Shown: positions 4-35,405 of the stretch, in pieces | How the letters are laid out: the number at the start of each line of letters is the position of its first letter | Position numbering within the stretch: the first letter of the stretch is position 1 | NCBI GenBank assembly: GCA_002753465.1 | Contig: PEAF01000011.1 | Location: 1 to 46,069 of the forward strand | Length of the DNA: 46,069 bases | Reading direction: 5' to 3' | Origin: Candidatus Omnitrophota bacterium | GTDB lineage: Bacteria; Omnitrophota; Gorgyraeia; Zapsychrales; Fredricksoniimonadaceae | Made by a program: the position numbers and the translations under genes | The notes under the pieces: generated by a model | The model's input: only the letters and a program-made list of their open reading frames with translations | Databases searched by the model: none | Told to the model about the DNA's origin: nothing

Positions 4-507
4 GTGGTCAAGGCGATCAAACTGACGCTGGAAAAAAAGATCCCGCCAGGTGTCTACAATATATCAACGGGTGTTAGCACGACTATCAGTTATTTAGCCA
101 CCGCATTAATGCTGCTTTTGGGGAAGCAGGTCCCCACCAAGGATCCAGGTGCGCATTCCCCGCAGCGTCATGTTTTAAGCTATATGAAATTCTTTTTTGC
201 GACGCTGGATGACGCGACAGGGCAGGGTTGGAGTCCGACGGCTTTTCTTGATGGCGTAAAGCTGAAGCTTGGGAATAAGTGGCGTCGCGCGTCAAGGGAG
301 GCTGATAATGCTCAGTTGCCCAAAGATGGCGGTGTGGACCTGCGTGATATTCAGGTTGAACGTCATGGGGCGGGGGCATCGACAGTGAATGACGATCAGC
401 AGTCTTTGCATGCGGTGTTAGGCAGTGGGCTGGGTGGATTTAAGCCGGTTGTTATCGGGTTCAGATCGGTTGAGAGCTTGGGGTATTTTCTAGGAATATC
501 GCCTTAA
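4..507 (+). CDS. C-terminal fragment resembling NAD-dependent epimerase/dehydratase; the last ~75 aa do not look like the family
   Basis: ORF opens at window edge; 'GVYNISTGVSTTISYLATAL' and 'GWSPTAFLDGVKLKL' resemble the C-terminal part of extended SDR sugar epimerases. Confidence 0.3.
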   Translation: MVKAIKLTLEKKIPPGVYNISTGVSTTISYLATALMLLLGKQVPTKDPGAHSPQRHVLSYMKFFFATLDDATGQGWSPTAFLDGVKLKLGNKWRRASREADNAQLPKDGGVDLRDIQVERHGAGASTVNDDQQSLHAVLGSGLGGFKPVVIGFRSVESLGYFLGISP

Positions 508-7917: not shown

Positions 7918-8751
7918 ATGACAAGGTTTTTTATTTTTATATTTTCACTGCTGTTTTTAATCGCGCCTGTTCATGCCCAGGAGAGGGTCCCGTCAAGGAT
8001 CATTTCCCTGGGGCCGGTCATTACGCAGGAACTTTATTTGCTCGGCAGTGAAGACCGTATTGTCGGTGTTACCGCGTATTGCCAGCGGCCTGAGGCGGCT
8101 AAATTGAAAGAACGTGTCGGGAATGTTCAGGAGATCAATCTGGAGAAGGTCGTGGCTTTAAAGCCGGATATTGTTTTTGCAACCGTACTGACAGACCCTC
8201 GGGCTAAAACCAAGCTCCGTAATTTGGGCATTAATGTGATCGATATCCCCAATGCCCGCGATTTTAATGAGGTATGCGATGTTTTTCTAATGATCGGGAA
8301 GATCGTCGGTAAAGATCAGGCGGCGCGCGTGATCATTGCTCAGGCGAAGGCCGAGGTAGCTGCCCTGAAAGAAAAGGTCAGCCGCAGTCCGTGGCTGAGT
8401 GTTTTTGTTCAGGTTGGCGCCAATCCTTTGGTGACCATTGGCCGGGGATCCTTTGTGAATGACCTTATCGAGCTGGCTGGCGGCGTCAATATTGTAGAGG
8501 GGGCGGGATACCTTCAGTATTCTAAGGAAAAGATCGTGATGAGCGATCCAGACGTGCTGCTTATCTCAAGTATGGGTTTCGACGGGGAACGGGAGAAAAA
8601 GAATTGGCAAAAGCTGGGGGTCCTTAAGGCGGCCAGGCAGGAGAAGATCTTTATTATCGATGAATATCTTTTATGCAGCCCGACACCCCTGAGTTTTGCG
8701 GACGCACTTAAGAGCATTATGAAGCATCTTCATCCTGAGGTGGTTTTATGA
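7918..8751 (+). CDS. btuF: Periplasmic cobalamin-binding protein BtuF
   Basis: Signal peptide; 'PSRIISLGPVITQELYLLGSEDRIVGVTAYC', 'LKPDIVFAT' cluster A-2 SBP motifs; downstream of B12 riboswitch. Confidence 0.9.
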   Translation: MTRFFIFIFSLLFLIAPVHAQERVPSRIISLGPVITQELYLLGSEDRIVGVTAYCQRPEAAKLKERVGNVQEINLEKVVALKPDIVFATVLTDPRAKTKLRNLGINVIDIPNARDFNEVCDVFLMIGKIVGKDQAARVIIAQAKAEVAALKEKVSRSPWLSVFVQVGANPLVTIGRGSFVNDLIELAGGVNIVEGAGYLQYSKEKIVMSDPDVLLISSMGFDGEREKKNWQKLGVLKAARQEKIFIIDEYLLCSPTPLSFADALKSIMKHLHPEVVL

Positions 8752-9749
8752 ACCATGTACGCTGGACGTTTTGGCTATTTTCTTTATTAGGGCTCTTAGT
8801 GGCCGTGATGATGCTTTCCTTGTCTGTTGGAGCGGCGGGTATCCCTGTTACTAAGATCATCCCGGTATTCCTAGAGGGGCGCGGCAGCGCTGAGTACAGC
8901 ATCTTGTTCGATATCCGTTTGATGCGTATTATCCTCGGCTTTGCTATTGGGGGATCATTAAGTCTGGCCGGTGTTATTTTGCAGGGTCTGTTTCGTAATC
9001 CTTTGGTTGAACCATACACGCTGGGTATTTCCGGCGGTGCGGCCTTGGGCGTCGCGATCAATGTGGCCTTGGGGTTGGCGGTGTCCGGCCGGATTACAGG
9101 GCCATTGGCAGGGGTTCTGGGCGCCGGACTTGTTCTTGTATTCTTATATTTCTCGAATTTAAGGATGGGGGTCATCAAATTACAGGGTTTGCTGTTGAAC
9201 GGTGTCATGATCAGCTTTATCTGTTCATCGCTCGTGATGCTTTTGATGGCATTATCGAGCCGTGAAAGTTTGCAGGGGATCATATTCTGGATCATGGGGT
9301 GTTTGGGGGAATCGGAAGTGTCGCTTATCTGGTCCATGTTCATCGCCGCATGGGTATTATTGGTGGCGGCATATTTCTTTTGCCTGCCGTTGAATGCTTT
9401 AGCTTTGGGAGAAGAGGAGGCTCAGCATTTGGGCGTTCCTGTTGAGTGCACCAAGCGCAGCCTGTTTTTCCTAGCCGCGGTCTTGACGGGTTTTTGCGTG
9501 GCGGTCGCCGGCATGATCGGATTTGTCGGGCTTGTTGTGCCACATCTGATGAGAAGGCTCGTCGGGCATGATCACCGCATTTTACTGGGAGCCTCTTTCC
9601 TGGCGGGGGCGATCTTTCTGATCTTTTGTGACATGCTGGCACGGACCATCATTGCGCCCTTGGAACTCCCCGTTGGGGTGATCACGGGCATTGTCGGTGG
9701 CAGCCTTTTTGTGTATGCCCTTTCACGGGGGGAGGTTGATCATGCTTAA
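8748..9749 (+). CDS. btuC: Cobalamin ABC transporter permease BtuC (FecCD family)
   Basis: 'LDIRLMRIILGFAIGGSLSLAGVILQGLFRNPLVEPYTLGISGGAALG', 'GLVVPHLMRRLVGHDHR'. ATGA overlap with btuF. Confidence 0.93.
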   Translation: MNHVRWTFWLFSLLGLLVAVMMLSLSVGAAGIPVTKIIPVFLEGRGSAEYSILFDIRLMRIILGFAIGGSLSLAGVILQGLFRNPLVEPYTLGISGGAALGVAINVALGLAVSGRITGPLAGVLGAGLVLVFLYFSNLRMGVIKLQGLLLNGVMISFICSSLVMLLMALSSRESLQGIIFWIMGCLGESEVSLIWSMFIAAWVLLVAAYFFCLPLNALALGEEEAQHLGVPVECTKRSLFFLAAVLTGFCVAVAGMIGFVGLVVPHLMRRLVGHDHRILLGASFLAGAIFLIFCDMLARTIIAPLELPVGVITGIVGGSLFVYALSRGEVDHA

Positions 9750-10527
9750 GGTCAAGGCTTTAACGTGCGGGTACGGGGGCCGTGCCGTGGTATCAGGGGT
9801 TGATTTGGATGTTAAAAGCGGGGAATTTTTTGGTCTTATTGGCCCGAACGGATCGGGTAAGACGACACTTTTGAGGGCGCTCTCACGCATCATTAAGCCC
9901 ATGGCCGGGGATATTGCGCTTAACGGTAAAGCGTTGGGGAAGATGGCGTGGCGGGAAATAGCGCGCGATGTGGCCGTGGTGTCCCAGCAAGTGCCGGTGG
10001 CCGCTATGACAGTTGAAGAATTTGTGATGCTGGGAAGGCTTCCGCATTTTGCGCAAATGCAGTTTTTAGAGTCAGCTCATGATCGTAACATCACCCGTGA
10101 TTGCATGGCAACGACGGGTACGTTGTGTTTCAAAGATAAACCCCTGCAGCATCTTAGCGGCGGTGAAAGGCAGTTGGTGCAGATCACACGCGCGCTGGTG
10201 CAGCAGCCGAAAATGCTGCTTTTGGATGAGCCGACGGCGCATTTGGACATCACCCATCAGGTTGCGGTCATGGGGCTTTTAAAGCGTCTTGTGCGCGAGT
10301 TGGATGTGACGGTCTTAATGGTCCTGCATGACCTTAATTTAGCCAGTGAATATTGCGATCGCCTGGCGCTGGTAAGTGAGGGGCGTATTTATAAAACAGG
10401 GACCCCGCAGGAAGTGATGGAGCGCGGCATTATAGAAGCAGTTTACAAGACTACGATTACTGTCGGGAAAAGTCCTGTTTCATCCAAGCCGTATATTTTT
10501 ATTAATACATCAAAGGAGGAGAAATGA
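9742..10527 (+). CDS. btuD: Cobalamin ABC transporter ATPase BtuD
   Basis: Walker A 'GPNGSGKTT', signature 'LSGGERQLV', Walker B 'MLLLDEPTAHLD'. Start at 9742 overlaps btuC end. Confidence 0.93.
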   Translation: MLKVKALTCGYGGRAVVSGVDLDVKSGEFFGLIGPNGSGKTTLLRALSRIIKPMAGDIALNGKALGKMAWREIARDVAVVSQQVPVAAMTVEEFVMLGRLPHFAQMQFLESAHDRNITRDCMATTGTLCFKDKPLQHLSGGERQLVQITRALVQQPKMLLLDEPTAHLDITHQVAVMGLLKRLVRELDVTVLMVLHDLNLASEYCDRLALVSEGRIYKTGTPQEVMERGIIEAVYKTTITVGKSPVSSKPYIFINTSKEEK

Positions 10528-12530
10528 AGAGGTTAGTACTTATTATCGGGTTAATGTTCGCGGGTGTCGGCTCGCTCTGGGCCCAGGAAGTCAAGGATCT
10601 TGGGCAGATCGTGGTAACGCCGGACCGCTACGTTTCGGATGCGTCCGAGGCTGGTTCATACGTGACGGTCATTACGCGCCGTGATATTGCCGCATCAGGG
10701 GCGTTCACGCTGCCAGATCTTTTGGTCAGACAGGCGGGTGTTCATGTGTATAACAAAGGAAGTCAAAAGAGTTCCGTCATAGATATGGGCGGGTACAATG
10801 ATGCCGCGGTGAGCAATGTGCTGGTCATGCAAAACGGCCGCAGGCTTAACCCTTCAGATTCATCGGGGCCTGACCTAGCACAGATTCCGCTGGATACGAT
10901 CGAACGGATCGAGATCGTGCGCGGTGGGGCTTCTGTGCTTTACGGTGATAATGCGGTGGGCGGCGTGGTTAATATCATTACCCGCAGCGGGCACGAAGGG
11001 GTGAATGGCTCCATTGCAACCGAGCTCGGAAGTTATGATCGTAAGAAGCTGAGTGCTGATGTGAGTGCCGGGAAAAAGGACCTTACGGTGTATGTGTTTG
11101 GCGGGACGGAGCGGACCAACGGGTATCGTACGAACAATGCTTTTCAGGCCTCTGATGGGCAGGTTCGTTTGAACTGGAAAGCGGTGGAACTTTTGTCGCT
11201 GGGGATCGAGGCTGGCTGGCATGAGGATGATTATGGTTTGCCTAGCGGTTTGCATGCGGATCAGCTTGGCTCACTTGGGCGGCGCGGGAGCAGGACCCCG
11301 GATGATTTCGGGGATACACGCGACCGTTATTTACGTTTAACGTCAGAGTGGAAACCTTTTGACGCCAGCGGTGAATTCGGCACTTTGTCTTTGGATTACA
11401 CGCATCGTGACCGGGATACGTATGGTTTTTATTATTACACCAGCCCTGAGTGGGAGTTCTCCAAGACGGGGATACTGAATGATTCGGCCAATTTGAAATA
11501 CAGGATCGAGAAAGATATTGCCGGCAGGAAAGCAGGTTTGACCACAGGGGTTGATGTTGTCAGTGACCGCAGCCATGTGATCGACCAGTATAATCCATGG
11601 TCTTTGCAGGATGTGAATATCGCTAAAAAAGAGCAGGGTTATTATTTTCTGGCCCAGTACGATGTTCTAGATAAGTTGACAGCTGATATTGGCGGGCGCC
11701 ACGAGAAAGCGGACTATACGTTCATCAGCCATGACATGGGGACTAAGGACAAAACGGCTCCGACAGCGAATGTATGGGGCGGCGGTTTGAAGTATGATTA
11801 TGCGCAAGGGTCCAATGTGTTTATTCGTGCGGATGAAACGTTCCGTTTTCTTAATACGGATGAGTATTTCAGCCGTTGGACGGGTCTGAATACGACGCTG
11901 CGTCAACAAACGGGGATCGATTACAGGGCAGGGGTTAAGCATGCCTTCGGTGAAGTTTTTGAGGCAAGGCTGACGCCGTTTATGACATTGAATAAAGAGG
12001 AGATCTTTCTGGATCCAACTGTGAGCCCTGGCAACAACAATAATTACGGGCGTACGCGTCGTTTGGGTGTGGATCTGGGACAGACATTCCATATGGTCCC
12101 TGCCTTGAAAGTGGCTGGATTGAGATCAACGGATATCAATGTGGATTATACGTACTTGGATGCTGAGTTTTCCGGAGGTTCATTTGGTGGCAAACGCTTG
12201 CCTATGACGCCCAGACATCAGGTTTCTGTCGGGATGAATATAGCTGCCAAGTCGGGGTTGTCGCTCAATGTGATGGGGCGTTTTCTGGGGGCTCAGTATG
12301 GGATCAATGATGATGCGAACAGGCGCGCGCCGATCAAAGCACGCGTGATTGCCGATACGCGCTTAGGGTATGCGTTTAATCCAAATTGGGATACGTTCGT
12401 GGGAGTTAATAACGTTTTTGACAAGCGTTACTACGAGTATGTTGCTTTTGGGGCAGGGGCATCGACCAACATTGATTACTATCCCGCCATTGGCCGCAAT
12501 TATGTGGCAGGGATGAAGTATAAGTTTTAA
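10524..12530 (+). CDS. btuB: TonB-dependent receptor, BtuB-like
   Basis: TonB box-like 'LGQIVVTPDRY', plug domain 'IERIEIVRGGASVLYGDNAVGGVVNIITRSG', terminal barrel strand ending in F; in btu operon. Confidence 0.9.
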   Translation: MKRLVLIIGLMFAGVGSLWAQEVKDLGQIVVTPDRYVSDASEAGSYVTVITRRDIAASGAFTLPDLLVRQAGVHVYNKGSQKSSVIDMGGYNDAAVSNVLVMQNGRRLNPSDSSGPDLAQIPLDTIERIEIVRGGASVLYGDNAVGGVVNIITRSGHEGVNGSIATELGSYDRKKLSADVSAGKKDLTVYVFGGTERTNGYRTNNAFQASDGQVRLNWKAVELLSLGIEAGWHEDDYGLPSGLHADQLGSLGRRGSRTPDDFGDTRDRYLRLTSEWKPFDASGEFGTLSLDYTHRDRDTYGFYYYTSPEWEFSKTGILNDSANLKYRIEKDIAGRKAGLTTGVDVVSDRSHVIDQYNPWSLQDVNIAKKEQGYYFLAQYDVLDKLTADIGGRHEKADYTFISHDMGTKDKTAPTANVWGGGLKYDYAQGSNVFIRADETFRFLNTDEYFSRWTGLNTTLRQQTGIDYRAGVKHAFGEVFEARLTPFMTLNKEEIFLDPTVSPGNNNNYGRTRRLGVDLGQTFHMVPALKVAGLRSTDINVDYTYLDAEFSGGSFGGKRLPMTPRHQVSVGMNIAAKSGLSLNVMGRFLGAQYGINDDANRRAPIKARVIADTRLGYAFNPNWDTFVGVNNVFDKRYYEYVAFGAGASTNIDYYPAIGRNYVAGMKYKF

Positions 12531-12599: not shown

Positions 12600-12775
12600 A
12601 TTCCCCTAAATACTCACACTATCAATCAGTTACAACATTTCAAGATAACGTTACCAGACAGGGTGTCATCTACCCTTGTTTTAGTTATCTTTTTACATAT
12701 ATATTTATACGTGGTGGAGGTCGTTGTGCAGGAAGCGTATTCTATATATAGGTGTGGCCTAAGGGGCGGCCGATT

Positions 12776-15700
12776 ATGCGGAAGATAACATCATTCTTTA
12801 TCCTTATAGCATTTGTCCTGAGTTGTGTGATGCCCCCGCAGGGCTTTGCCCAGTCATTAACAGCTATTGGTTTGATGCCGGCACCTGGTACCCAGGTGAG
12901 TTTGACAGGTTCTTATACGCCTACGCACCTCAAAGGCATGGTGATCAATCCCAATGATCCATTCAAATTCGATTTTATCGTCTACCGTGGTGATGAAAAG
13001 CTTACACCCGAACAGAAACAGACCGAATATCCCAAGTTGATCAAATATTTTCTGGCGTCTTTGTCCGTTCCTGATACAGATCAGTGGGTCAACTTATCGC
13101 CTTACGAAAAAGAGCGGATTATCCCGGATAATTTTGGATTGACGGAGATGGGGCGTGACCTTTTGGCGCAGGATTACCTTCTTAAACAGGTCGCAGCATC
13201 GTTGACCAACCCCGATACAGATCTGGGTAAACAGTTTTGGGATGAAGTTTACGCCAAGTCGTATGAGAAATTTGGAACGACGGATATCCCTACGGATGTG
13301 TTCAATAAAGTTTGGATCACGCCGGATAAAGCTGTTGTCTTTGAAAAGGGGAATGCCGTGGTCATCATCGAGCATCATTTAAAAGTGCAGATGGAGAGCG
13401 ATTATAGGGCTATGCAGATGAACGCGGCCACGACGGCAACAGAACAGGATAATGAAGCGGTAAGGATCTCCAAGCAGGTGATGCGCGAGGTCATTATCCC
13501 GGCGATCGAAAAAGAGGTGAATGAAGGCAAGAGCTTTGCTCCGGTGCGGCAGGTTTATGGCGGCATGCTTTTGGCCACGTGGTATAAACGCGCACTCAGG
13601 GAATCGATTTTGGGCAAGGTTTATGCGGATCAGGGCAAGGTCAAGGGTATTGACCAGGACCCGGCGAATAATCAGCAGATTTATCAGGAATATGTCAAGG
13701 CGTTCAAGGTGGGCGTTTTTAATATGATCAAGGAAGATGTGGACCGCTACTCGCAGGAGATGATCCCGCGCAAGTATTTCTCCGGCGGTCTAAAGAATGA
13801 TTTTGCTCAGGTGTTAGTGATCGACCATACTCAGGCCGGTGAGGTGAAAGCACGAGAGATGATCAGCGATGACGACATCGTTAAGACTGAAATGAAGAAT
13901 TCAGACAGCTCAGCTCAGGACCGTGCCAGGGATTGGGTTACTGGTCAAGACGGCACGCTTATGGAACGATTTTCGAACGAAGGTATGCAGGCGTCGATTG
14001 ATCATGTTTGGAGTAACCCTGTCCTGAAGGAAGATATTTTAAGTATGGCAGGGTTAAAGGAATTGAAGAATCCCAGGATAATGTATGGCGGGCAGGGAAG
14101 CACAAAAGATGTTGCTTTTATTAAAGGGCAGGATGCTGACGGGAAATCGATTTCCATTGCGGTGAGGTTTTATAAATCGAATCATACGCCTTTTAAGAAG
14201 ATCGATGCGTTTGCGCAAGAGGAAGTTGCCGCGAATCTTGAAGACACGACTTCCGTGAAAGTATTCGGGTATCATTCATTTGCAGATTACTACAACAATA
14301 AGGCTATCAATGAGCTGGAGGATACTGTATTTACGGGCGCTGGATATGCAGGATTTTCAGTTGGTCAATATCTTCCATATAAGGTGACCGCATTAGAGAA
14401 CTCAGGGTTAAAGAGCAGTAATGTATATGCAGGGTTAATAGCTACGACTCTTTTAAGGTGGCTATTAAAAGGTGAATTTATGGGTGATCTTAAATTTGAG
14501 AATTTCGGTGTCGATACTGACGGTGCGGTTAAGATCATTGATACAGGGGATATGCATCAGGTGAGTTATGCGGACAGTGTTGTCAATGAACTGATATCAT
14601 TTTTCGAGAAAAAGGGATTATTAACTGATCCTGTTCAGAAGAAAGAGATATTAAAAGGGTTTAATTTGGGGCTGTCAAGGTTTTGGGATTTACAGCCTGA
14701 AAGTTTCCAAAAGTTGATGGACGGCCCTGATGAGCTCAATGCCATCCTTAATATTGAAACTAGTGTTAATAATTATATTAATCCCGGGGATCATGCTCAA
14801 GTTGATGCCGCGATGCAAGGATGGCGGGGGACGCAGAAGAAGTTCGAACGCCGGAAAAACACCGAAGCATATATTATGAGAGCCCTCAAGGCTGCTGGTG
14901 TTGCTGTTGCGGGGGTTGCCATGTATGGGATTATTAATTTGGGTACTTCAGCCGCAGCGCAGAGAAGTTATCCGGTGCCGAACATGCCAACCGTGAAGGT
15001 TGTTAAAGTTTATGATCAGAAAGGCCATGCTACGGCGGTTTCCATTGATGAAGCCAGTCCTGAGAATAATGCTGTTTTGAGTAAAGACCGTGCGATGAAG
15101 TCAACATTAGTGGCTGCCGCGATCTTGTTGGCTACGTTTATGAATGTTTCTTTGGCATCTGCGGCCGGTATTAATACGAAGACTCCTGATTCTCAGGAGT
15201 TGTCGGTAAAGAAAGAAATTACCGCTGATCCGATATTAGTAGAGTTGAATCGACTGCAAAGGGGTGCTGTTAATCCTTTCTTGATCCATAAGCAGGGCAA
15301 AGGATCATCAGGTTTTATGTCGATAAGCTTGGATAAATTAAGAGAAAACCTTAAGAATCCCGACACACTTACTGTGTTTTTTGGTTTAATGATGAAGAAT
15401 GTTTATTCGAGTTTTGAAGTTCCTGAAAGTGTTATGCCTTCTGATATTGTTAAAGAGCTTAAAGGCCTCACGAAGGGACTAACCATTGAAGGATCAAATA
15501 TTTCACCCCTCTTGCAAGAAGCGGTTAAGTTTGACGCACGCGACATTGCCAAGACGGAGGCCGTTAAACTTTATTATGATGCTAATAATGGCAATGAGAT
15601 CGGGGTCTTATTCTTTGATCGTATTTCTTCGGCAGATGTTAAAGAGAACGTGGGTGGTATTGACATGAATGCCGCTAATCTGAACATGCAGATCAAGCGT

Positions 15701-15820
15701 GACGGGGCTGGTGTTCCATTGCCTGTCAGCCAGCAGGATCTTGAGAATATCCGCATTGACGGCCTTGTGCCCGTGATCCTGGATATTAAACCGGCAGCGG
15801 GGATACCGTTATTTAGTTGA
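12776..15820 (+). CDS. Large secreted multidomain protein with central protein-kinase/APH-like signature
   Basis: Signal peptide MRKITSFFILIAFVLSCVMPPQGFAQS; kinase-like 'MYGGQGSTKDVAFIKG..ISIAVRFYK' and 'GDLKFENFGVDTDGAVKIIDTGD'; internal hydrophobic AxA-like segments. ATG 12776 in frame with ORF-track start 12752. Confidence 0.8.
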   Translation: MRKITSFFILIAFVLSCVMPPQGFAQSLTAIGLMPAPGTQVSLTGSYTPTHLKGMVINPNDPFKFDFIVYRGDEKLTPEQKQTEYPKLIKYFLASLSVPDTDQWVNLSPYEKERIIPDNFGLTEMGRDLLAQDYLLKQVAASLTNPDTDLGKQFWDEVYAKSYEKFGTTDIPTDVFNKVWITPDKAVVFEKGNAVVIIEHHLKVQMESDYRAMQMNAATTATEQDNEAVRISKQVMREVIIPAIEKEVNEGKSFAPVRQVYGGMLLATWYKRALRESILGKVYADQGKVKGIDQDPANNQQIYQEYVKAFKVGVFNMIKEDVDRYSQEMIPRKYFSGGLKNDFAQVLVIDHTQAGEVKAREMISDDDIVKTEMKNSDSSAQDRARDWVTGQDGTLMERFSNEGMQASIDHVWSNPVLKEDILSMAGLKELKNPRIMYGGQGSTKDVAFIKGQDADGKSISIAVRFYKSNHTPFKKIDAFAQEEVAANLEDTTSVKVFGYHSFADYYNNKAINELEDTVFTGAGYAGFSVGQYLPYKVTALENSGLKSSNVYAGLIATTLLRWLLKGEFMGDLKFENFGVDTDGAVKIIDTGDMHQVSYADSVVNELISFFEKKGLLTDPVQKKEILKGFNLGLSRFWDLQPESFQKLMDGPDELNAILNIETSVNNYINPGDHAQVDAAMQGWRGTQKKFERRKNTEAYIMRALKAAGVAVAGVAMYGIINLGTSAAAQRSYPVPNMPTVKVVKVYDQKGHATAVSIDEASPENNAVLSKDRAMKSTLVAAAILLATFMNVSLASAAGINTKTPDSQELSVKKEITADPILVELNRLQRGAVNPFLIHKQGKGSSGFMSISLDKLRENLKNPDTLTVFFGLMMKNVYSSFEVPESVMPSDIVKELKGLTKGLTIEGSNISPLLQEAVKFDARDIAKTEAVKLYYDANNGNEIGVLFFDRISSADVKENVGGIDMNAANLNMQIKRDGAGVPLPVSQQDLENIRIDGLVPVILDIKPAAGIPLFS

Positions 15821-33695: not shown

Positions 33696-35405
33696 ATGCT
33701 GCTTTTCTTGTCCGTTTCACCTTCCTTTGCCGAGATCGAGTTCAGCGGCGGGGTGGTTATCTCCGGAAAACAGAAGTTCACACGGCCCGTGAACTGGATC
33801 CCTTCCGTGGCACAGGCACCTACTATTCTGGGATCAACATTAACAGAACTTACCATTACCTGGCCGGATACGGTCGGAGCCGTTTCCTATAAATTGACGC
33901 GGGCTACCAATGCCGGGATGTCGACGGGCGTCACGGATCTTGGCACGCGCGCCAGCGGTTATACCAACACCGGCCTTGCCCAGGGAACTACCTACTATTA
34001 TACGGTTACTGCTGTTAATGCGACGGGGCCTTCAACACCGTCAGCACCCGGTAGCGGTGCTACAGGCCAATTGCCGGCTGAGCCAGGTGCGCCGGTTATT
34101 AACGTTGTGGCGCTGGCAAGTTTGCAAGTGACATGGAATGCAGCAGCACGCGCTACGTCATATACAGTGATTCGTGCTACAGATTCAGGTATGACGCAAA
34201 ATGTGACGGTGTTTACGAATAAGACAAGTCCTTATGCGGATACTGGTCTAGCTAATGGAACTCCATTTTGGTATACCGTGACTGCAGTGAATGGGTATGG
34301 TAGTTCGACACCTTCGTTAACGGGGACCGCTAGCACAATGGGGGTTCCCGATGCGCCTACAGGGGTCACGGCCGTGGCAGGAAATGCTTCAGCCACGGTG
34401 ACGTTCGCCGCACCAAGTTCCAATGGCGGCGGTGCGATGGTGTATGCGGTAACAGGCGGCGGGACTGATACCAATGCCGGTACATCCAACTTGACACATG
34501 CGATCACGGGTTTGACGAACGGTACGCCGTATACCTTTACGGTCAAAGCCACTAATTCAGCTGGGCAGGGTGTGGGGGGCACATCTAATACGGTGACTCC
34601 GGCGGGCGTGCCTGGTGCCCCGACAAGTGTGACCGCAACAGCCGGCAACACGACAGCGAGCGTAACATTTGTTGCGCCGAGTTCTAACGGCGGCGGTGCG
34701 ATGGTGTATGCGGTAACAGGCGGCGGGACTGATACCAATGCCGGTGCATCCAACTTGACACATGCGATCACGGGTTTGACGAACGGTACGCCGTATATCT
34801 TTACGGTCAAAGCCACTAATTCAGCTGGGCAGGGTGCGGGCGGCACATCTAATACCGTAACGCCGATCGCAACTTCATCCATTACCTTTACGAACAATGC
34901 TGGCAGTGCTGCTGCGGTGACTTTTACTGGAGTTTGGAGCGGTACACTTACACCAGGCAGTTCGCAAGTGATCAATGCCTCATCATTTTCAGTCACAATC
35001 ATCGGCGGTGGTGGTAATTGCGGTGCTTCAACGAGCGCCTCTCCACCTTGTCCTGCGGCTACTGGGGGTGGTAGTGGTGGTGGTGCTTCTTATGTTGTTA
35101 TGGGGGCTGCTTATGCTGCCGCTGGTGGTGGCAGTGGTGGTAGTGGATATTGTGGCGGAGCCGGGAGCCTTGGTGGAACTTATGGTGTAGCGGGTGCCGG
35201 AGGTTTTGGAAGCAGTGGTGTTAGCGTGACCGGCACTGGGACCGTGGGCAATGCTTGTACGTGTTATAGCCCCGACGATCAAGATTATTGTGGAGGAGGA
35301 GGCCAGGATGGAGGGTATATTGCGGCGGACTTCATTTCTTTAACGTCGCCTGTTTCGATCAAGGTCGGGGTCGGGGGTGTAGTCGCCATTATAACAGCAC
35401 CCTGA
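33696..35405 (+). CDS. Fibronectin type III repeat surface protein with glycine-rich C-terminus
   Basis: Repeated 'P.APTGVTAVAGNASATVTFAAPSSNGG...YAVTGGG...ITGLTNGTPYTFTVKATNSAGQG' FN3 units; Gly/Ser-rich end with Cys; abnormal, short start 'MLLFLSVSPSFAEI'. Confidence 0.8.
   Translation: MLLFLSVSPSFAEIEFSGGVVISGKQKFTRPVNWIPSVAQAPTILGSTLTELTITWPDTVGAVSYKLTRATNAGMSTGVTDLGTRASGYTNTGLAQGTTYYYTVTAVNATGPSTPSAPGSGATGQLPAEPGAPVINVVALASLQVTWNAAARATSYTVIRATDSGMTQNVTVFTNKTSPYADTGLANGTPFWYTVTAVNGYGSSTPSLTGTASTMGVPDAPTGVTAVAGNASATVTFAAPSSNGGGAMVYAVTGGGTDTNAGTSNLTHAITGLTNGTPYTFTVKATNSAGQGVGGTSNTVTPAGVPGAPTSVTATAGNTTASVTFVAPSSNGGGAMVYAVTGGGTDTNAGASNLTHAITGLTNGTPYIFTVKATNSAGQGAGGTSNTVTPIATSSITFTNNAGSAAAVTFTGVWSGTLTPGSSQVINASSFSVTIIGGGGNCGASTSASPPCPAATGGGSGGGASYVVMGAAYAAAGGGSGGSGYCGGAGSLGGTYGVAGAGGFGSSGVSVTGTGTVGNACTCYSPDDQDYCGGGGQDGGYIAADFISLTSPVSIKVGVGGVVAIITAP
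34425..34601 (+). repeat. Near-identical tandem FN3 block, unit 1 (period 264 bp)
   Basis: About 7 differences over 177 bp to 34689-34865. Confidence 0.85.
34689..34865 (+). repeat. Near-identical tandem FN3 block, unit 2
   Basis: See unit 1. Confidence 0.85.

Follow-up and report, generated by a model that had tools for sequence, protein, structure and literature searches.

A diverged protein kinase-like domain within a predicted exported, modular protein of Omnitrophota

In this study, we ask whether the middle of an ORF whose product begins with an apparent signal peptide encodes a protein kinase fold, and what such a domain could do outside the cytoplasm in the Omnitrophota, a lineage for which, to our knowledge, there is no known extracytoplasmic source of ATP. 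The ORF (12776..15820, + strand) lies in a stretch of 46,069 nucleotides, analysed as a whole and called the window throughout, and encodes 1,014 aa from ATG, with the M of MRKITS numbered as residue 1; a GTG at 12752 is an alternative start, from which the protein would have 1,022 aa. It comprises a signal peptide, an N-module, a protein kinase-like (PKL) domain, hydrophobic segments and a C-tail, and the gene is complete, since paralogues match it at both ends.

Homologues, motifs and predicted fold

The window protein alone matched nothing in Pfam (E<=10) or NCBIfam, and a search for relatives with the full-length protein found none. A search of the phylum gave one clear homologue, L044 (E 7e-14, an E-value for one genome), a three-row alignment found three relatives in Candidatus Omnitrophota, and iterated profiles led to nine full members plus partial or distant relatives; the fringe matches L082, L083 and L059 of profiles A2/A3 look like chance and were dropped. 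The nine members each come from a different genome and a different genus, spanning seven families; their pairwise identity is only ~20-35%, and seven of them are harboured by ORFs of 1,300-11,900 aa. Neither the window protein nor the kinase-like domains of the nine members reached the curated cut-offs of the Pkinase (PF00069), APH (PF01636) and HipA families, and the Pfam matches among the nine members were weak ABC1 matches in two of them (best E 0.012). When the nine-row profile was compared with the PDB, 58 of the 60 matches were protein kinases, in register across both lobes, the catalytic loop falling on HRDLKPxN, and PKR and DYRK2 aligning with the beta1-beta3 region; the best kinase E-value was 0.022. 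HipA, SelO and CotH were absent among the matches listed, an absence that does not exclude likeness. The top PDB match of profile A3, 6xi1 (flagellin hook), was rejected as it arises solely at the beta1-beta3 hairpin, from four weak repeat matches. No single E-value is decisive, and it is the mutual agreement of the matches that carries weight for the kinase fold.

The motifs follow one another in kinase order. They are a Gly-rich loop GGQGST (residues 438-443, 14087..14104), in which G441 is invariant across the nine homologues; a beta3 strand IAVRFYK (461-467, 14156..14176); the invariant alphaC Glu483 (14222..14224); a hinge-like GFSVGQY (526-532, 14351..14371) with an invariant G530; a catalytic loop GDLKFENFG (570-578, 14483..14509), which aligns with HRDLKPxN of solved kinases and in which D571 and N576 are invariant and K573 is common; and, at the DFG position, KIIDTGD (586-592, 14531..14551) with an invariant D589, all on the + strand. 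The invariant positions include the Trp of the helix preceding the catalytic loop and the Val and Asp around the DFG position. Thus the four kinase-like strings that a sequence-only reading had picked out in this ORF are present where it placed them, and its concern that the motif residues might not be conserved among homologues is answered by the retention of the Gly, Glu, Asp, Asn and Asp. The domain itself is larger than that reading proposed: its location within 14081-14640 is right and its limits are not, since homologues and structure predictions extend it to about residues 415-665 (14018..14770, + strand).

Structure prediction with AlphaFold2 from a four-row alignment gave a low-confidence model of the window domain (pLDDT 48, pTM 0.46) and a better one of its relative L101 from Ca. 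Omnitrophus magneticus (pLDDT 70.9, pTM 0.64). The order of strands and helices in both models is that of kinases, and in Foldseek the best 50 matches were all kinase folds for both models, so that the check suggested by the sequence-only reading turned out in its favour, with the reservation of the low pLDDT of the window model. In VIA-align, all matches listed for both models were kinase folds; L101 matched RIOK3 with Z 11.8 (rmsd 4.3, 199 aligned), Rio1 and PRPK with 11.1 and APH(2'') with 11.0, and the window model reached Z up to 9.2 (PRPK, rmsd 4.9, 195 aligned). Homologues, profile search and structure prediction all support the kinase-fold reading, and this stretch almost certainly encodes a highly diverged, complete PKL domain. 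By its predicted fold and most of its motifs it is a member of the PKL superfamily, with the beta3 Lys replaced, and belongs to no Pfam family.

Members of the family differ in what surrounds the domain. Part of the N-module is present in L044 too, together with a GGID-like motif near its C-terminal end, which suggests an architecture similar to that of the window protein, and L095 is a compact 463-aa homologue with little beyond signal peptide and kinase domain. Domains found in the same ORF as a kinase homologue are cNMP-binding (L044), SpoIIE (L078), SLT (L096) and aldose epimerase (L098), and in the giant ORF of L097 (5267-19000, - strand; >4,500 aa) a canonical, motif-complete Ser/Thr Pkinase (Pfam E 3e-82) lies close behind the divergent domain. 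The ORF of L078 (3-6368, - strand) encodes 2,122 aa and looks exported; besides the kinase-like domain it has the SpoIIE phosphatase (Pfam 5e-8) and a stretch, RIGGDEFG, that resembles a GGDEF motif by reading only. No canonical Pkinase was found in the window's genome, which is only 64% complete.

The AT-richness noticed by eye in this stretch is real. Residues 411-665 have a GC of 0.404 and a GC3 likewise of 0.404, and residues 776-955 are also low (GC3 0.389), whereas GC3 is 0.571 in the N-module, 0.559 in the C-tail and 0.53-0.62 in almost every other long ORF of the window; the gene is therefore a compositional mosaic. No homologue turned up in 31 further genomes from the same family, so that acquisition of the gene may have been recent and the gene dispensable. 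Recent acquisition of the passengers as a general rule was rejected, as only a few among 32 paralogues have middles as poor in GC3 as that of the window protein. Elsewhere in the window, an ORF at 33696-35405 (+ strand) begins like a signal peptide and continues with fibronectin-like repeats and then a Gly-rich tail, and its GC2 of 0.65 and GC3 of 0.48 are odd.

The shared ends, their passengers and export

The kinase-like domain sits between two ends that the window protein shares with many others. The N-module (residues 26-359, core ~320 aa; 12851..13852, + strand) is common to more than 30 paralogues in the genome, of which 34 were aligned over the same N-terminal ~345 residues, and the closest of them resemble the window protein at its two ends only. 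The other end is the GGID C-tail (residues 960-1014; 15653..15817, + strand), a piece of ~55-70 aa that terminates most N-module proteins; a GGID tail of ~60 aa ends 23 of them, and its profile had 32 matches genome-wide. In the phylum, the N-module profile was found in 37 of 145 sampled Omnitrophota genomes, the largest number of candidate copies in a single genome being 80. Neither the N-module nor the GGID tail had a match in Pfam or NCBIfam or a convincing match in the PDB, and no description of this scaffold or of the kinase family was found in the open-access literature searched, which is an incomplete set. The C-terminal end of another family member, with an N-module, NAD epimerase and GGVD/GGID tail architecture, lies at 4-507 (+ strand) of the window; the start of its gene overlaps the terminal part of contig C70 (L058:7576-10305:+), and the gene thus seems to be common to both contigs.

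Between these ends, passengers with matches above or near Pfam cut-offs include an SNF2 ATPase, CofD with NTP-transferase and HAD, a PPDK ATP-binding domain, an NAD-type epimerase, HEAT repeats and an amylase domain, with weaker matches to HD, metallophosphoesterase and glycosyltransferase. The catalytic motifs are intact in the passengers inspected, namely SNF2 (DEPGLGKT, DEVH, RLYRIGQ), NTP-transferase, HAD and epimerase. The SNF2 protein, L062 (12981-20000, + strand), is a signal peptide-bearing N-module protein with an apparently intact SNF2 (Walker A DEPGLGKT, DEVH, RIGQ) and 4 Cys in 1,992 residues; by its sequence, a DNA-remodelling ATPase seems to be exported. We infer that the N-module and GGID tail may serve as general-purpose ends for targeting or anchoring, with widely differing enzyme domains mounted between them. 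Internal signal peptide-like segments occur in the N-module proteins L049, L051, L060, L063, L064 and L048, twice with a lipobox-like VPGC in L048, as well as at 15095-15166 of the window; it is as if entire secreted precursors had been joined on after the N-module.

Two lines of evidence bear on export. Firstly, the window protein starts with a type-I signal peptide, MRKITSFFILIAFVLSCVMPPQGFA, followed by Q (12776..12850, + strand), at a hydropathy peak; all 34 aligned paralogues begin with a corresponding segment, whose end is in most cases (Y/F/S)A before a Q, and by hydropathy and paralogue alignment the n-, h- and c-regions and the AxA-type site expected for Sec export and signal peptidase I are all present. 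Secondly, cysteine, whose exclusion is typical of exported bacterial proteins, is nearly absent: there is none in the 989 aa of the mature window protein and none in the 2,857 residues of the nine kinase domains, and only 24 in 31,716 residues of passengers (0.76 per 1,000) and 8 in 11,030 of N-modules, compared with 11.4 per 1,000 in the 17 other ORFs of the window and 11.9 per 1,000 in neighbours of the homologues. At 11.4 per 1,000, the Poisson chance of no Cys in 2,857 residues is about 8e-15, a figure to be read in the knowledge that homologous sequences are not independent. The large ORFs carrying kinase homologues have, as wholes, 2.5 Cys per 1,000. The predicted export of the window protein is thus well supported and, because of the signal peptide shared by 34 paralogues and the near-total exclusion of Cys, the kinase domain very probably lies outside the cytoplasm, as its signal peptide had suggested on first reading. 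Moreover, dozens of interchangeable, nearly Cys-free enzyme passengers between the same ends suggest that these bacteria use enzymes of an ATP-dependent type outside their own cytoplasm.

Activity of the domain and alternative readings

With moderate confidence, we consider the most likely reading to be that of an atypical phosphotransferase, exported as a passenger between the two ends, and we lean slightly towards a domain that is, as its motifs predict, a catalytically active transferase. The protein would be exported by the Sec system, and its kinase domain would bind a nucleotide, with a metal held by Asn576 and Asp589. Arg464 would pair with Glu483, replacing the phosphate-binding beta3 lysine of the Lys-Glu pair, and D571 would catalyse; phosphate or another nucleotide-derived group would then be passed to an extracytoplasmic protein or glycan in the periplasm, at the cell surface or within a cell serving as attachment partner or prey. 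Action in or on another cell is possible though less likely than not, and we put it forward as putative. Against the favoured reading weigh the beta3 Arg, the DFG Gly lost in three members, the low-confidence window model, the failure to find homologues in the 31 other genomes and the want of a known ATP source outside the cytoplasm of this lineage.

The residue at the position of the VAIK lysine is central to this question. Among the features by which PKL membership is judged, the Gly loop, alphaC Glu, catalytic Asp/Asn and DFG Asp are present and the VAIK lysine is not; what had been read as a beta3-Lys-like residue is Arg464. By the sequence definition of a pseudokinase (at least one of the VAIK/HRD/DFG residues lost), this replacement makes the domain one. 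The Arg is shared by eight of the nine members, the beta3 consensus being [VILF]-[AGS]-[VILM]-R, and the DFG Gly, present in the window domain, is degenerate or lost in three (L079, L095 and L098). In most kinases a beta3 Lys to Arg change strongly lowers activity, and ATP binding persists in STRAD-type pseudokinases that have an Arg in beta3. The beta3 Arg in this clade thus keeps alive the option of an exported pseudokinase, in which the fold would be kept for binding a nucleotide or partner, as a scaffold, sensor or in adhesion, with no phosphotransfer. We regard this as a real possibility that falls well short of probable. However, the catalytic Asp, Asn and DFG Asp are invariant despite ~20-35% identity, and it is hard to see why a scaffold would retain the full set; L044 has Lys, and among the more distant relatives some (e.g. 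L116 and L119) read Lys near the same position and others have neither residue. With D/N/D intact, as read from the sequence, inactivity of the domain is not implied by the VAIK Lys to Arg change.

An unlikely reading is that of an extracytoplasmic enzyme whose substrate would be a sugar, glycan or drug and not a protein, either a small-molecule phosphotransferase resembling APH or fructosamine kinase or an AMPylase or glutamylase with the PKL fold. APH(2'') ties with RIO/PRPK among the best structural matches of L101, and enzymes that AMPylate or glutamylate are among the members of the PKL superfamily (PMC10870513). However, the profile is nearer to Ser/Thr kinases (D-L-K-x-x-N, I-D-L-G) than to APH, and a Pfam match to APH is absent. 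It is quite improbable that the domain is not exported, the N-terminal helix being an uncleaved anchor or later hydrophobic segments returning the kinase domain to the cytoplasm. Two more signal peptide-like segments do lie behind the domain, MRALKAAGVAVAGVAMYGIINLGTSAAA (residues 701-728; 14876..14959, + strand), seen by sequence inspection and below the hydropathy cut-off, and MKSTLVAAAILLATFMNVSLASAA (774-797; 15095..15166, + strand), with a mean hydropathy of 1.99 and similar segments in several paralogues; basic residues (GTQKKFERRKNTEAYIMRALK) precede the first of them and, by the positive-inside rule, would place that side in the cytoplasm. Yet a single hydrophobic segment precedes the kinase domain, with its basic end N-terminal, the cleavage-like sites are consistent in the 34 paralogues, Cys is excluded from the mature protein and all nine domains, and L095 has no such later segments. 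Lastly, chance resemblance of the motifs within a non-kinase fold has a negligible probability. In its favour, Pfam and NCBIfam are blank, and the single sequence gets no further than PKC-theta, matched over the catalytic loop with E about 0.9. Against it, the homologues, the profile, the order of secondary structure elements and the structure searches are in mutual agreement.

Returning to the exported phosphotransferase that we favour, a more far-reaching and tentative proposal, which we think possible and rather doubtful, is a two-tag delivery, in which the signal peptide with the ~320-aa N-module and the GGID tail would carry nucleotide- and DNA-dependent enzymes into prey or hosts, the kinase being a trans-kingdom or interbacterial effector. 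If so, the kinases, SNF2 ATPase and nucleotidyl transferases would reach ATP and substrates in the prey or host. Predation or host association has been proposed for Omnitrophota (PMC10066038), which makes a putative delivery to another cell plausible. The window's genome contains secretins, and a search for SprA of the T9SS gave no match, with a control likewise matching nowhere.

Comparison with known systems and significance

The domain shares with Ser/Thr kinases (PF00069) the bilobal fold, motif order, D-x-K-x-x-N loop, DFG-position Asp and alphaC Glu, and differs from them in being below Pfam detection, in its beta3 Arg and long linkers, and in being apparently exported and Cys-free. RIO, Bud32/PRPK, ABC1 and APH(2'') include the best structural matches of L101 and, in ABC1, the weak Pfam matches of two members; however, those proteins are cytosolic, identity to them is 8-16% and there is no family motif in common beyond the PKL core. 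FAM20/FAM69, CotH and the Toxoplasma WNG/ROP kinases are examples of a kinase fold that works outside the producer's cytoplasm, inside a vacuole or within a host. Disulfides are usual in FAM20/FAM69-type kinases, whereas the window kinase domain has no Cys. A partial relative, L081, matches FAM69 PIP49_C at E 7e-4, below its cut-off, and the window protein itself has no FAM20/FAM69/CotH match; this group differs in lacking any family-level sequence match and in that the architecture here is a bacterial passenger one. The concept of secreted kinases acting without canonical elements is already known from WNG1, which is active despite having no Gly loop (PMC6442604).

In polymorphic toxin systems (PMC3482391), as here, a constant trafficking part is combined with exchangeable enzymatic parts in many paralogues per genome. 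In contrast, the variable part is here flanked by a constant piece at either end, and the passengers are housekeeping-type enzymes and not known toxins. The downstream neighbour of the kinase gene, on the opposite strand, is a MetH-like (methionine-synthase-like) ORF, named by reading, and no immunity gene candidate was seen there. Upstream, at 7918-12530, lie a periplasmic binding protein, a FecCD permease, an ABC ATPase and a TonB-dependent receptor; this neighbourhood is probably one of cobalamin uptake and unrelated to the kinase gene, and Rfam found no RNA family, and hence no riboswitch, in the window.

The giant ORFs of Omnitrophota (Seymour et al. 2023, PMC10066038) belong to the same phylum and, like most members of the kinase family, are very large. 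In the part of that report drawn on here, these large and giant exported proteins are thought important for predation or symbiosis and few domains are recognised in them, adhesins at most, and neither a kinase domain or effector nor the N-module/GGID family is mentioned. Our analysis now identifies a family of kinase-fold domains inside such proteins, and the near absence of Cys from the passengers offers independent evidence that nucleotide-dependent enzymes leave the cytoplasm. It also exposes a modular family with a constant N-module, a variable middle and a constant GGID tail, in dozens of copies per genome. The role of the giant proteins thereby becomes testable, through ATP binding by the passengers, their final location and the role of the two end pieces.
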